Source: Flavobacteriales bacterium (GTDB taxonomy: Bacteria; Bacteroidota; Bacteroidia; Flavobacteriales; UBA7430). Taken from it: a DNA stretch of 64,000 bases. The stretch covers positions 1 through 64,000 of the forward strand of contig JAKMFX010000019.1 of assembly GCA_022425195.1 (NCBI GenBank), read 5' to 3'. The notes beneath the pieces were generated by a model. That model saw only the letters and a list, made by a program, of their open reading frames with translations, had not been told where the DNA came from and searched no databases. Positions 24,224 through 30,752 of the stretch are shown piece after piece. How positions within the stretch are numbered: the first letter of the stretch is position 1; the number at the start of each line of letters is the position of its first letter. Position numbers and translations under genes: made by a program.

Positions 24224-24994
24224 TTAACCTTTAGTAATCTCTTTTACAAACTGTTGAGTAGCTTGTTCCGTAGAAGGCTTGTCACTCAAATACTTAATGA
24301 ATGCACTCCCAATGATCCCACCGTTCGCATGCTTTTGAACAAGCGAAAGGTCATCTGAAGTACTTATATTAAACCCAACAAGTATAGGATGTTTAAGCCC
24401 TAAGCCTTTCAAACCTGACAAATAGGTATTCCCATCACTAAGTCCACCCGTAGCCTTCCCCGTTGTACTGGAACTACTTACGGCATAAATAAAGGTACTA
24501 CTTAAATCATCAATTAACTTTAGGCGTTCTTTACTTGTCTGAGGAGTTATCAAGAAAACAGGACTTAATCCGTAATTCTTAAACATCTCTTCATAAGAAG
24601 CCTGGTATAAGCCTATGGGCATGTCTGGAATGATAATTCCCTCAACCCCTACAGATTGACATTGCTGACAAAAATGTTCAATTCCGTATTTAAATACCGG
24701 ATTGAAATACGTCATGACAACTTTCGGTATGTCAGGGGTACATTCTTTAAGTTGCTCAAAAATCAAATCAATAGTAATCCCATTGCTCAATGCTACCGCA
24801 TTACTTTTTTGAATGGTTTCTCCATCGGCAATAGGGTCTGAATAAGGAATCCCAATTTCTACCATATCTACACCTGAATCGTGCAAAGCATTAACGATCT
24901 TCGGTAAATCATTTAACTTTGGATATCCCGCAGTACAATAGATGTTCAGGAGCCCCTCTTGTTTTGCCTCTAATACTTTTTTTAATGTGCTCAT
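24224..24994 (-). CDS. trpA: Tryptophan synthase alpha subunit
   Basis: CTAGYPKLND, DMVEIGIPYSDPIADG, SSSSTTGKATGG. Confidence 0.95.
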   Translation of the reverse strand: MSTLKKVLEAKQEGLLNIYCTAGYPKLNDLPKIVNALHDSGVDMVEIGIPYSDPIADGETIQKSNAVALSNGITIDLIFEQLKECTPDIPKVVMTYFNPVFKYGIEHFCQQCQSVGVEGIIIPDMPIGLYQASYEEMFKNYGLSPVFLITPQTSKERLKLIDDLSSTFIYAVSSSSTTGKATGGLSDGNTYLSGLKGLGLKHPILVGFNISTSDDLSLVQKHANGGIIGSAFIKYLSDKPSTEQATQQFVKEITKG

Positions 24995-26157
24995 TAGATG
25001 TTTGCATTTATGTATGTGTTCATATCCTTATCGCCACGACCACTCAAATTGATGACAATTTTATCAGTAGTTGTAAAGTTCATCTTCTCAAGATAAGCCA
25101 GTGCGTGAGCTGTTTCTAGAGCAGGAATGATCCCCTCTAATTTCATAAGTCTGTTGGCGGCTTCCAAAGCCTCTTCATCCGTAACGTTTTTATACGTCAC
25201 CCTACTACAATCGTGTAAGTAGGCGTGCAGAGGCCCAATACCCGGATAGTCTAGACCTGCAGAAATACTGTGAGGCTCTACCACCTGACCATCGCTGGTT
25301 TGCATTAAATAGCTCATAGAGGCATGCAGCACCCCTTTGGTTCCCAGTGCAAGTGTCGCTGCTGACTTATCTGTTTGAACACCCATTCCACCTGCTTCAA
25401 CACCTATCAAATTAACCGATTCATCCTCTAAGAAATTATAAAAGGCTCCAATGGCATTACTACCCCCACCTACACAGGCAATCACGTGTGTTGGAAGTCC
25501 TTCCATCTGCTCTTTGATTTCTTTTGAAATGATGGCTTGTAATTGCGTAACCAAATCCGGATAAGGATCAGGACCTACAGCAGAGCCAATTATGTAATGG
25601 GTGTCATCGGGATTGTTTATCCAATCTCGGATGGCTTCATTGGTAGCATCTTTCAAGGTTTTACTTCCGCTGTGTACAGCGCAAACTTCTGCGCCCAACA
25701 TCTTCATTCTTGAAACATTAGGGGCTTGACGTTCAATATCTTTAGCGCCCATGTAAACAATACACTCTAAGCCCATCAAAGCGCAGGCAGTAGCTGTTGC
25801 CACTCCGTGCTGTCCGGCACCTGTTTCAGCAATAATACGCGTCTTATTTAATCGTTGGGCTAAGAGCACTTGACCCAGTGTATTGTTGATTTTATGCGCG
25901 CCCGTATGACATAAATCCTCTCGCTTCAAATAAATATCTGCACCATAATGAGTACTCAATCGCGAAGCATAGTATAAGGGGGTCGGGCGACCTACATAGT
26001 CTTTCAGTAAGCTCTCCAGCTCCTCCTTAAAGGCGTCTTCACTAAGTATTTCTCGGTAAGAACTTTTGAGTTCTTGAATGTTCGGATAAAGCATTTCAGG
26101 TATAAAAGCACCCCCAAATTCACCATAAAATCCTTGTTCATTTACATCGTATTTCAT
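24994..26157 (-). CDS. trpB: Tryptophan synthase beta subunit
   Basis: [54 protein letters not shown]. Confidence 0.97.
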
Positions 26158-26780
26158 CCTTCTCTGGTTTTAAGTATCAGTTCCTTTACTTTGTTCACAT
26201 CCTTATTTGCCGGTGAAATCTCCACACGACTGTTTACATCTATTCCCAATAACTTAGGAATCTGTAATCGTTTTATTCTTAGAATATCTTCAGCAGAAAT
26301 CCCACCGCTTAACAAGAAGGGAAGTTCTGATGAATAGGTAGTAAGTAAATTCCAATCGAAATGCTTGCCACTACCCCCATAACCTTTGGTTTTCGTGTCA
26401 AAGAGCAAAATATCCGCACAGTTCTCATAGGGCTTTATCTGATCCAAGTCAAAGACATCGCCCATGTGAAAAACTTTAATTACAGAAATGCCTTCCAACC
26501 GAACTTGAGCACAATACTCAGGAGATTCGTTGCCGTGTAATTGGGCATATGACAAGCCCAAGCGATGGCAAACCTCTACAACTTTTTCTATCCCCTCATC
26601 AACAAAAACACCCACGCGATTGATGGACTCAGGCAATTGATGAAGTGATTTACCTAAGGCTTCTTCATCGACGAATCTCGCAGACTTTTTGTAAAATATA
26701 AAACCTAAAAAATCAGGTGCTAAAGAAGCCACCTCATTAATGTTTTGAAGGTCTTTCATTCCACAAATTTTAATTTTCAT
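26154..26780 (-). CDS. trpF: Phosphoribosylanthranilate isomerase
   Basis: [38 protein letters not shown]. Confidence 0.93.
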
Positions 26781-27577
26781 TGCTGCTCGAGTTTTTTCAC
26801 TTCCTCAATCAACTTCGCACATGCGAGGTTGGGTTGTTGATGATTCATAAAATGAGTTCCAATCAAGAAGCCTTCGAACCCGTACTTTTTTAATTCGACA
26901 ATGTGCGCTGCTTTCGTAATCCCACTTTCACTAATTTTAACAAATTCATCCGGTATGTATTCGGACAATTCAATACTCGTTTGAATGCTCGTCGTAAAAT
27001 TATGAAGGTTTCGATTGTTGACACCTACCACATCCACAGAAGCAGAAATATGACGCTCTATCTCTTGTTTATTATGAACTTCCAAAAGAACTTCGAGCCC
27101 AATGCTTTTTGCAAAATCAGCGAGCTCATTACACCTCTTTTCTGGCAATGCGGAAGCGATAAGCAAAATACAATCTGCACCTACACTACGAGCTTCTAGA
27201 AGTTGATATTCGTCAATAATAAATTCTTTTCGAAGAATCGGACAGTTGTTGTACTTTCGTGCAGTAAGTACATCATCGAGAGTTCCTCCAAAATATTTAT
27301 GGTCACTCAAAACAGACAAAGCGGTTGCTCCTGCATGAATGTATCCCGTACTTAATTGCTCAACATCAATCTGATCATTGATGGACCCCTCACTCGGTGA
27401 GCTTCTCTTTATTTCGGATATAATTCCTACCCTATCTTCTCTTCTGAGATGAGCACTCATGGAGACAATCGGCTTCTCAAAATACAAGCTTCCTTGAAGA
27501 GACTTTTCCGAAACTATTTTTCGCCGCTCTCTGACTTCTTGAGCTTTATGGAGTAATATTTCTTCTAAAATGCTCAT
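26777..27577 (-). CDS. trpC: Indole-3-glycerol phosphate synthase
   Basis: IISEIKRSSPSEG, VLSDHKYFGG, LRKEFIIDEYQ, VGVNNRNL, SESGI. Confidence 0.95.
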   Translation of the reverse strand: MSILEEILLHKAQEVRERRKIVSEKSLQGSLYFEKPIVSMSAHLRREDRVGIISEIKRSSPSEGSINDQIDVEQLSTGYIHAGATALSVLSDHKYFGGTLDDVLTARKYNNCPILRKEFIIDEYQLLEARSVGADCILLIASALPEKRCNELADFAKSIGLEVLLEVHNKQEIERHISASVDVVGVNNRNLHNFTTSIQTSIELSEYIPDEFVKISESGITKAAHIVELKKYGFEGFLIGTHFMNHQQPNLACAKLIEEVKKLEQQ

Positions 27578-28563
27578 AAGGAGAGTAACGTTTTAAATGC
27601 GTTGTAAGCCTTGCCTGTTTGTAGAGATTCTATCGCCATTTCTCGACATTGCTCTCTTGTTTTACTAGGAAAAGCTGAATGAATTGCCATGCTTGAATTT
27701 GCAACAACGACGGCATTCTGAGCTTTCGTCCCTTTACCTTCAAGAATATCAATAAAAATTTTAGCCGAAGATTCCACCGTATTACCTCCACTAATTGCAC
27801 TAGGATCAAGCTGCTTTTCAGACAAATGATAAGGACTCAACAATTCTTCTTTTTCAGGGCTGATGACCTTTACATCTCCAGTTAAACTGATCTCATCATA
27901 TCCATCTAGAGAGTGAACAATTCTATATTGAATATCACTTTCTTCATATAAATATTTGTAGTACCGCTGTAGCTCGAGCGAAAAGACTCCCACGAGTTGG
28001 CCTTTTGGGAAGGCTGGATTCACCATCGGACCTAACATGTTAAAAAAGGTCCTCACGCCCAAGTTCCTTCGAATAGGGGCCACCTCTTTCATTGCGGGAT
28101 GAAATAGAGGCGCGTGTAAAAAGCAAATCCCTGCTTGATCAATTTGTTTTTCAATTTTATCTGCATCATTCGTAAATTGAAATCCAAGATGCTCTAAAAC
28201 ATTTGAAGAACCACAAGAAGAACTCACACCATAATTACCGTGCTTAGCTACTTTTGCTCCTGCCCCTGCAGCAACGAAAGAAGATAGCGTACTGATATTA
28301 AAGGTATCTTTACCATCACCTCCAGTTCCACATAGATCTATAGGTGCATAAGCATCTAGTTCTACACGTTTACATAGATTTCTGAGTGCATCTCGAAAAC
28401 CTTTAAGTTCTTGAACCGTAATTCCTCGCATTCGAAAAACGGTTAAAAAAGAGCTTATCTGATAGGCATTAAAATCTCCCTTCGATATTTGAGTTAGCGT
28501 TTCTTTAGCCTCATCACAACTTAGGGTATTGTGTTCAAACAAATGTTCTAATAAGTCTTTCAT
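27574..28563 (-). CDS. trpD: Anthranilate phosphoribosyltransferase
   Basis: DLCGTGGDGKDTFNISTL, KHGNYGVSSSCGSSNVLE, GPMVNPA. Confidence 0.95.
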   Translation of the reverse strand: MKDLLEHLFEHNTLSCDEAKETLTQISKGDFNAYQISSFLTVFRMRGITVQELKGFRDALRNLCKRVELDAYAPIDLCGTGGDGKDTFNISTLSSFVAAGAGAKVAKHGNYGVSSSCGSSNVLEHLGFQFTNDADKIEKQIDQAGICFLHAPLFHPAMKEVAPIRRNLGVRTFFNMLGPMVNPAFPKGQLVGVFSLELQRYYKYLYEESDIQYRIVHSLDGYDEISLTGDVKVISPEKEELLSPYHLSEKQLDPSAISGGNTVESSAKIFIDILEGKGTKAQNAVVVANSSMAIHSAFPSKTREQCREMAIESLQTGKAYNAFKTLLSL

Positions 28564-29132
28564 GACTGGGCAATTTTAAGAAAGTTTCGCATCATTTGGT
28601 CGCCGTGTTCTGTCATAACACTCTCGGGATGAAACTGTATGCCATACATTTTTTTCGAAGGGTCTGACAAAGCCATCACTCCACCGTATTCGTCTTCTGC
28701 AGTGATCAAAACATTTTCGGGTAATCCCTCACGGATGACCTCCCAAGAATGGTATCTTCCCACTTCAATTTTCTCAGGAATCCCTTCAAAAATTTCTTCG
28801 TCAGAGGTAATAGATATCTGACTTTTTACACCGTGATAAACAGTAGACATGTTATTGAGCTTTCCTCCTAAATACTCTGCAATGGCCTGATGTCCTAAGC
28901 ATATACCTAAGATTGGCTTTTTTCCTGCACAAGTAGAAATGATCTCGCCCATATTACCTGCTTCAGAGGGTATCCCGGGCCCCGGAGACAGTATGATTAA
29001 ATCAAACTCTAAGGCCTCTTCTGCAGTAATTTTGTCATTTCTATAAACCTCGTGTTCGATGTTCATACTACGGAACATGTGCACCAAGTTATAGGTGAAA
29101 CTGTCGTAATTATCAAGAACTAATAGTTTCAT
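28560..29132 (-). CDS. trpG: Anthranilate synthase component II (glutamine amidotransferase)
   Basis: DNYDSFTYNLVH, SPGPGIP, ILGICLGHQAI, GIQFHPESVMT. Confidence 0.94.
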   Translation of the reverse strand: MKLLVLDNYDSFTYNLVHMFRSMNIEHEVYRNDKITAEEALEFDLIILSPGPGIPSEAGNMGEIISTCAGKKPILGICLGHQAIAEYLGGKLNNMSTVYHGVKSQISITSDEEIFEGIPEKIEVGRYHSWEVIREGLPENVLITAEDEYGGVMALSDPSKKMYGIQFHPESVMTEHGDQMMRNFLKIAQS

Positions 29133-30550
29133 ATTTCTACTGCGTTTATGATGGCACGACGAATAGCCGCTACCTTGTTATCAATTTCTTTTCGCTCACC
29201 TTGAGGTGTACTTCCCACCACAATTCCCGCTCCTGCTTGATAAGTAAGCGTATTATTTTTACTGAGAATCGATCGTATGACGATCGCATGGTTTACGCTA
29301 CCGTCAAAACCAAAGTATCCTATAGCGCCACCGTAAAAGTTTCTTTTACTAGGCTCATTCTCATCAATGATTTGTAATGCCCTGTATTTAGGCGCACCCG
29401 AAAGTGTACCCGCTGGGAAGGTGTCAAAATAAAGGTCTAAACTACTCTTCCCCTCCAGCAGCTTCCCACTTACCTTACTCACCATGTGAATGACGTGAGA
29501 ATAATATTGTGTTTCAGCATATTCATCAACCTTGACGTCATCAGCACTTCGGCTTAAATCATTTCTGGCGAGGTCAACCAACATGATGTGTTCTGAAATC
29601 TCTTTGGGATTCTCTCTCATTTCTTGCGCCAAACGCAAGTCATCTTTAGCATCCCCAGTTCTCCTAACTGTACCCGCAATAGGTGCAATAACAGCTTCAT
29701 GATCTCTTACAGAAATTTGCAACTCCGGAGAAGATCCGAAAAGTTTAAAATTTCCGTAATCAAAATAAAACAAATAAGGGGAAGGGTTAATGCTACGAAT
29801 ACTTCTGTATACATTGAATTCATCGCCTTTAAACCCTTGTTTAAATTCTCGAGACAACACGACTTGAAAAACATCTCCTCGGCGGCAGTGGTCCATACCT
29901 TTTGAAACCGCATTCTCATATTCACCATCGGTCAGGTTACTTATTTCCGTTCCTGACTTCGAAAATTTGAATTGTTCTGTACGCTCTACTTTTAGTTGAG
30001 CATATAGTTTCTTAAAGTCTGCATCATCAGCGCTTATTGGAGAAGTTCCATACTTAAGAATATAGAGCTGATTCTTGAAGTGGTCAATCGCCAGGACATA
30101 TCTAAAAAGTTGATATTTCATGTCCGGATTATCCTTGTGTGCATCTTCTTTAGGACTTAAATCAATATCTTCAAAGTACTGTACCGCTTCAAATGAAGTG
30201 TACCCAAAAAGACCACAAATACCAATAGGGTTTTCGCTCTCTACTTCTTCAAACTGGGCTAGAAATTTTTTAAACACCCCAGTCATCTCATTTTTAGCAC
30301 TCACCTCAAAGTGTTCGACAGACCCGTTTAAGTCAGAAATGCTGTAATTCTTATCTTTTGCCTCAAAACCTGCCATAGGCTGGAGGCAAATAAAGCTAAA
30401 ACTATCCTCCTTACTGTGATAGTCAGAGCTTTCTAACAAGAGCGCATTCGGATAATGGTCTCTCATCTTAAGATAGGCGCCCACGGGTGTAATCGTATCC
30501 GCTAAAACCTTGATACAATTGCTATAAATTTTTTGTTTCTTCATCATCAT
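29129..30550 (-). CDS. trpE: Anthranilate synthase component I
   Basis: PIAGTVRRTGD, HIMLVDLARNDLSR, FPAGTLSGAPKYRALQII, QAGAGIVVGSTP. Confidence 0.95.
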   Translation of the reverse strand: MMMKKQKIYSNCIKVLADTITPVGAYLKMRDHYPNALLLESSDYHSKEDSFSFICLQPMAGFEAKDKNYSISDLNGSVEHFEVSAKNEMTGVFKKFLAQFEEVESENPIGICGLFGYTSFEAVQYFEDIDLSPKEDAHKDNPDMKYQLFRYVLAIDHFKNQLYILKYGTSPISADDADFKKLYAQLKVERTEQFKFSKSGTEISNLTDGEYENAVSKGMDHCRRGDVFQVVLSREFKQGFKGDEFNVYRSIRSINPSPYLFYFDYGNFKLFGSSPELQISVRDHEAVIAPIAGTVRRTGDAKDDLRLAQEMRENPKEISEHIMLVDLARNDLSRSADDVKVDEYAETQYYSHVIHMVSKVSGKLLEGKSSLDLYFDTFPAGTLSGAPKYRALQIIDENEPSKRNFYGGAIGYFGFDGSVNHAIVIRSILSKNNTLTYQAGAGIVVGSTPQGERKEIDNKVAAIRRAIINAVEI

Positions 30551-30556
30551 ACATAA

Positions 30557-30576
30557 AAAGTCATTAAAGTGACTTT
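30557..30576 (-). other. Short inverted repeat immediately upstream of the trpE start
   Basis: Minus strand AAAGTCA-CTTTAA-TGACTTT followed by TT, 6 nt before the first trpE ATG. Confidence 0.5.
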
Positions 30577-30626
30577 GGTGAATATGAAATTATTTGCCAC
30601 TTAAAAACACAGTGTTTGTTAAAGCA

Positions 30627-30655
30627 AAAAAAGACCCGCGAGAAGCGAGTCTTTT
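30627..30655 (-). terminator. trp leader intrinsic terminator (attenuator 3:4 hairpin)
   Basis: Minus strand AAAAGACTCGC-TTCTC-GCGGGTCTTTTTT: 11-bp stem with one G-U pair, then T tract; lies between the leader ORF and trpE. Confidence 0.85.
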
Positions 30656-30687
30656 ATTATGATTTATACACAACAGAGCTTCTCCGA

Positions 30688-30735
30688 TTATCTAAATCGA
30701 ATCCACCATGAGTTGTTTGTATTTTTATTTTCCAT
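30688..30735 (-). CDS. trpL: trp operon leader peptide, MENKNTNNSWWIRFR*
   Basis: Minus strand ATG GAA AAT AAA AAT ACA AAC AAC TCA TGG TGG ATT CGA TTT AGA TAA; tandem Trp codons followed by a terminator in front of trpE. Not in the ORF track. Confidence 0.85.
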   Translation of the reverse strand: MENKNTNNSWWIRFR

Positions 30736-30744
30736 AACCTAGTG

Positions 30745-30752
30745 CAAATATA
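30745..30752 (-). promoter_or_regulatory. Bacteroidota -7 box TATATTTG, trp operon promoter
   Basis: Exact TAnnTTTG on the minus strand, 9 nt upstream of the leader ATG. Confidence 0.7.

Follow-up and report, generated by a model that had tools for sequence, protein, structure and literature searches.

The trp operon of the Flavobacteriales bacterium analyzed here (GenBank assembly GCA_022425195.1, contig JAKMFX010000019.1) lies on the minus strand of a 64,000-nt stretch of DNA, referred to below as the window, and has the gene order trpEGDCFBA by NCBIfam best matches. Upstream of the start of trpE (30550), the window contains a short open reading frame (ORF) with tandem Trp codons (WW), and, between this leader ORF and trpE, an intrinsic terminator (Table 1). 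A preliminary description of this DNA had proposed a −7 box, the WW leader ORF, three helices (1:2, 2:3, and 3:4), and a T tract; each occupies, to the base, the minus-strand position given there.

Table 1. Features of the trp leader and operon in the window (positions in the 64,000-nt stretch).
Feature	Position	Strand	Basis or remark
−7 box TATATTTG (consensus TAnnTTTG)	30745-30752	minus	sequence check
Predicted transcription start (A); leader AUG preceded by a 5-nt 5′ UTR	30740	minus	inferred from −7 box position and sequence
Leader peptide ORF, 15 codons, MENKNTNNSWWIRFR, stop TAA 30688-30690	30688-30735	minus	sequence check; kept in relatives
Tandem Trp codons TGGTGG (sensor)	30703-30708	minus	sequence check; conserved
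Segment 1, TTCGATT, 5′ arm of 1:2 helix	30695-30701	minus	sequence check, folding
Segment 2	30678-30689	minus	AATCGGA 30683-30689 pairs with segment 1; GAGAAGC 30678-30684 pairs with segment 3
2:3 antiterminator arms CGGAGAAGC and GCTTCTCGCG	30678-30686 with 30637-30646	minus	sequence check
Segment 3, GCTTCTC(GCG), partner of segment 2	30637-30646	minus	
Terminator arms AAAAGACTCGC and GCGGGTCTTTT	30645-30655 and 30629-30639	minus	3:4 hairpin, 11 bp, 30629-30655
Intrinsic terminator including T tract	30626-30655; T tract 30626-30632	minus	terminator scan, folding
Fossil of second, downstream trp attenuator: weak hairpin AAAGTCA/TGACTTT and T run	30555-30576	minus	alignment with relatives
trpE	29129-30550	minus	NCBIfam best match; TrpE comparison
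trpG	28560-29132	minus	NCBIfam best match
trpD	27574-28563	minus	NCBIfam best match
trpC	26777-27577	minus	NCBIfam best match
trpF	26154-26780	minus	NCBIfam best match
trpB	24994-26157	minus	NCBIfam best match
trpA	24224-24994	minus	NCBIfam best match

The combination of parts is rare by chance. A WW leader (8-30 codons) with a hairpin-T-tract of −12 kcal/mol or lower no more than 115 nt behind it occurs once in the window, at the trp site; in 15 dinucleotide shuffles, the frequency of this pattern is 0.07 per 64 kb. The 11-bp hairpin was recovered by a terminator scan, in which terminator-like sites numbered 2 vs. 0.1 expected from shuffles, and the folding energy of the full leader is −31.2 kcal/mol vs. 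−23.0 kcal/mol in dinucleotide shuffles (z = −2.35). The match between segments 2 and 3, taken in the window alone, is modest (p = 0.065 vs. mononucleotide shuffles).

The position of the −7 box predicts that transcription starts almost at the leader AUG. In Flavobacterium psychrophilum, the TAnnTTTG box occupies positions −12 to −5 (PMC9723704), and application of this spacing to the window places the start at about 30740. Neither a convincing −33 TTTG element beside the −7 box nor a sigma-70-type promoter was found at the window leader. Among 74 distinct leader units from the related loci described below, a perfect −7 box is present within 60 nt of the leader in 46 units, vs. 4% in shuffles, and in 27 of these 46 the box is separated from the leader ATG by 4-9 nt, corresponding to a predicted 5′ UTR of 0-5 nt. 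Many Bacteroidota trp leader mRNAs are thus predicted to be leaderless or near-leaderless. Since 5′ UTRs shorter than 10 nt make up only ~3.7% in B. thetaiotaomicron, and leaderless mRNAs only 5.5% of those examined in F. psychrophilum (PMC9723704), near-leaderless starts look favoured at trp leaders. The preliminary description had noted that no obvious Shine-Dalgarno sequence precedes the leader ORF; the sequence is indeed absent, but this is no difficulty, since Bacteroidota mRNAs are without Shine-Dalgarno sequences and Bacteroidota ribosomes fail to recognize them (PMC6847099, PMC9976891), and since the ORF is predicted to begin ~5 nt from the mRNA 5′ end. The arrangement suggests how attenuation can work with ribosomes that ignore Shine-Dalgarno sequences, namely by translation from the very 5′ end.

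The leader and the terminator are conserved across the phylum. We analyzed 81 loci, comprising the window and 80 TrpE relatives picked by protein alone, and found that 76 of them carry, ahead of trpE, a WW/WWW or WxW leader and, after it, a terminator; WW or WWW is present in 67 of the 74 distinct leader units. In an independent sample of genomes across the phylum, chosen by TrpE alone, all 39 genomes of the same class have the leader and 37 of the 39 have the terminator; among 20 genomes of other classes, the leader is present in 12 and leader plus terminator in 11. In the three loci L003, L004, and L005, with TrpE identities to the window of 97%, 93%, and 90%, the leader peptide ORF is conserved, and the leader, segments 2 and 3, and the terminator are nearly unchanged in an alignment in which the downstream spacer is scrambled.

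The antiterminator covaries. Since segment 2 is in many cases located within the leader ORF, it was sought from the last Trp codon onward, up to 20 nt beyond the leader stop; a search begun at the stop codon fails in many lineages. From lineage to lineage, segments 2 and 3 vary in concert, as GAGAAGC/GCUUCUC, GACAGCG/CGCUGUC, GAUCGG/CCGAUC, and GCCGG/CCGGC. The segment 2/3 duplex is better than in shuffles (p < 0.05) for 43% of units, and pairings within a locus are better than those across loci (mean rank 0.26; KS p ~2e-9, a value uncorrected for phylogeny and inflated by kinship). For Flavobacterium-type loci, this simple duplex test was not significant. In the 39 better-supported units, the distance from the last Trp codon to the start of segment 2 has a median of 16 nt (IQR 13-18.5; sd 4.6, vs. 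12.3 for a shuffled control; 18 nt in the window), while the distance from segment 2 to the stop codon varies (sd 10.6). The near-fixed first distance, together with the variable second, indicates that the conserved feature is the geometry of a stalled ribosome.

We conclude, with a probability of about 0.9, that the window element attenuates transcription of the trpEGDCFBA operon by a ribosome-mediated mechanism. The preliminary description had called for a comparison of trpE leaders from related Bacteroidota, and this comparison shows conservation of the WW ORF and the terminator together with covariation in the antiterminator. The proposal of ribosome-mediated attenuation in that description is backed by the conserved leader and terminator, by the segment 2/3 covariation, and by the near-fixed spacing between Trp codons and segment 2. 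According to the mechanism that we propose, RNA polymerase would start at about 30740, and translation of the leader ORF would begin at once, at the AUG ~5 nt downstream of the mRNA 5′ end. If Trp-tRNA is plentiful, the ribosome would reach the UAA and cover segment 2, the 3:4 hairpin would form, and transcription would stop at the T tract (~30626). With scarce charged tRNA-Trp, the ribosome would stall on the two Trp codons, blocking segment 1, with its leading edge short of segment 2; segment 2 would then capture segment 3 ahead of segment 4 synthesis, leaving polymerase to read through into trpE.

Geometry and covariation are in accord with a 2:3 antiterminator exclusive of 3:4, with a ribosome on the Trp codons that spares segment 2, and with a ribosome at the stop codon that covers it, on the assumption of kinetic control. 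Equilibrium folding with ribosome footprints masked was rejected as a means of discriminating the states, as the terminator wins in all of them (P = 0.93-0.97 in every ribosome position, with P < 0.01 for 2:3). With the transcript cut off short of segment 4, folding yields 2:3 when a ribosome occupies the Trp codons but not when it occupies the stop codon, and 2:3 is also predicted to form with no ribosome. The ribosome-position argument of the preliminary description thus holds for a transcript in which segment 4 has not yet been made, but not at equilibrium, and, in view of the equilibrium dominance of the terminator, the 2:3 helix can act only kinetically, before segment 4 exists. Kinetic capture of this kind is accepted for the enterobacterial system.

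According to one alternative reading, the attenuator has decayed under genome reduction and regulation has been lost. The genome is small (1.77 Mb), a second attenuator unit has decayed in the window's family, and L006 is without both WW leaders; however, in the window, L003, and L004, the first attenuator is almost unchanged amid the scrambled spacer, which argues for purifying selection on it, and we regard loss of regulation in the window as improbable. Still less credible is a plain promoter-proximal terminator, for example that of a short transcript or an independent small RNA, next to which the WW ORF stands by coincidence. The thermodynamic preference for 3:4 in all states is as such a terminator would predict, but almost every Bacteroidota trpE locus carries a WW/WWW leader ORF at this place, spaced at a near-constant distance from a segment 2 that covaries, and the chance rate of the pattern is only ~0.07 per 64 kb anywhere.

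Comparison with Rfam shows that the proposed ribosome-mediated attenuator is of a class that is already known. Family RF01692, Bacteroid-trp ('Bacteroidete tryptophan peptide leader RNA'; Weinberg et al., 2010, PMC2864571), is a Trp leader-peptide cis-regulatory RNA of the same phylum. The window fits its description, as a Bacteroidota RNA with a Trp leader peptide located ahead of trp genes, and aligns over the full model, but at 32.8 bits, below the 49-bit cut-off for formal membership; it carries WW and a GAGAAGC/GCUUCUC switch, whereas the family has WWW and a Flavobacterium-type switch. Of 18 sources scanned, nearly all of which have the parts, only L036, L084, and the second unit of L009 pass the cut-off, and these three share the window's layout. 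The curated model therefore misses divergent copies, and the window is one such divergent, unannotated copy. Attenuation in a Bacteroidota trp operon, which the preliminary description had presented as worth characterizing, gains comparative support but is not a new idea, the class being catalogued as RF01692. What is added here to the known class is breadth, the near-leaderless start, and attenuators in series or as fossils; trp leader-peptide attenuation looks close to universal in the taxonomic class of the window organism, beyond Flavobacterium-like leaders. A literature search on trp attenuation in Bacteroidetes returned few results. Vitreschak et al., in FEMS Microbiol Lett in 2004, had reportedly already listed candidate attenuators in Bacteroidetes/Chlorobi.

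T-boxes, riboswitches, and protein-controlled (TRAP-like) attenuators control trp genes in other phyla, but such a device in place of a leader peptide is the least probable reading here, as Rfam at gathering cut-offs detects no T-box, riboswitch, or other family in the 64-kb window, Bacteroid-trp ranks first at low threshold (with Phe_leader, Trp_leader, and Thr_leader also listed), and the Trp codons are conserved.

The enterobacterial trp leader (RF00513) shares with the window tandem Trp codons, four alternating segments, a stop codon adjoining segment 2, and a terminator before trpE. The likeness shown here is one of layout and not of sequence homology: the window scores 17.8 bits against RF00513, below its 41-bit cut-off, and, unlike the enterobacterial leader, has a predicted 5-nt 5′ UTR and no sigma-70-type promoter that we could find. 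The mRNA of the Sinorhizobium meliloti trpLE(G) attenuator is leaderless, its 5′ end being the trpL AUG, as predicted for many Bacteroidota leaders, but phylum and operon differ, and its products have trans-acting roles (PMC7298713). The 5′ leaders of amino-acid operons described in F. psychrophilum are from another organism, and the main text of that report does not name the trp operon (PMC9723704).

Some loci have two Trp leaders before trpE. We found nine: L005, L008, and L009; L010, L015, L016, L017, and L022 from Rufibacter, in which the first unit has a weak T tract; and L027 from Marivirga. The nine fall in at least three lineages (the window clade with L008 and L009, Rufibacter, and Marivirga), and the tandem label requires four changes on the TrpE tree. 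Convincing tandems were found in none of the 39 sampled same-class genomes. No second leader was assigned a perfect −7 box, which suggests a single promoter with units in series. In Salmonella mgtCBR, two leader ORFs likewise stand in series before one operon, but the trp tandems differ in that both leaders carry Trp codons, so that the same amino acid would be read twice (PMC3641672). A literature search found no paper on tandem trp leader-peptide attenuators.

In the window's family, which groups with L007-L009 at full support on the TrpE tree (with some long branches there), the second unit appears at successive stages of loss. Aligned to the window, the second units of L008 and L009 are intact. 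In L005, leader 2 is cut short, with WW followed by TGA where L009 has a third TGG, and terminator 2 is intact (a single-base difference, at risk of error as these are mostly metagenome bins). In the window, L003, and L004, the leader ORF of the second attenuator is missing and only a weak hairpin remains, in the same aligned block (CATTCACCAAAG...; window 30555-30576); the window thus has unit 1 alone intact, with unit 2 a fossil, and is not itself a tandem of two intact units. The series ends with L006, in which both WW leaders are gone. We consider it reasonably likely that some Bacteroidota, in several lineages, run two Trp-leader attenuators in series behind one promoter (the first of them on an mRNA that is leaderless or nearly so), presumably for sharper or deeper repression, with stepwise loss in the window's family. 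The tandem units constitute a natural series for what a second attenuator adds and how decay proceeds.

Two observations concern individual members of this group. At L006 (2290-2515; also L122), where TrpE is 86% identical to that of the window, the second terminator is degraded along with the absence of a WW leader, and trp attenuation has apparently been lost. TrpE proteins of L009 (Haloflavibacter) and L008, from distant taxa, group with the window's family instead of other Flavobacteriaceae. Both loci have tandem attenuators, and in these two cases the trp operon may have been transferred horizontally together with its leader.

Examination of other operons of the genome, one by one, gave no comparable leader in the leu/ilv region read (L145, L146, L149) or in the parts read around the homoserine dehydrogenase gene (L148, L150). 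Comparable leaders are present at two other operons. Upstream of hisG, a His attenuator (L143, G000:C38) has a leader at −160 to −100 with five consecutive His codons (MNLIQTHHHHHTGSQTSQG), a terminator of −20.4 kcal/mol, and a segment 2/3 duplex of −13.3. A Phe-type attenuator (L144, G000:C37), located ahead of the prephenate dehydratase gene at a distance of about 130 nt, has the leader MNRLENTFNSFYFIYDR, a terminator of −13.6, and a segment 2/3 duplex of −11.1, with a GAGGCUU/AAGCCUC switch. From these leaders, the organism appears to use leader-peptide attenuation at several operons, and the presence of His and Phe attenuators in the same genome increases confidence in the trp case.
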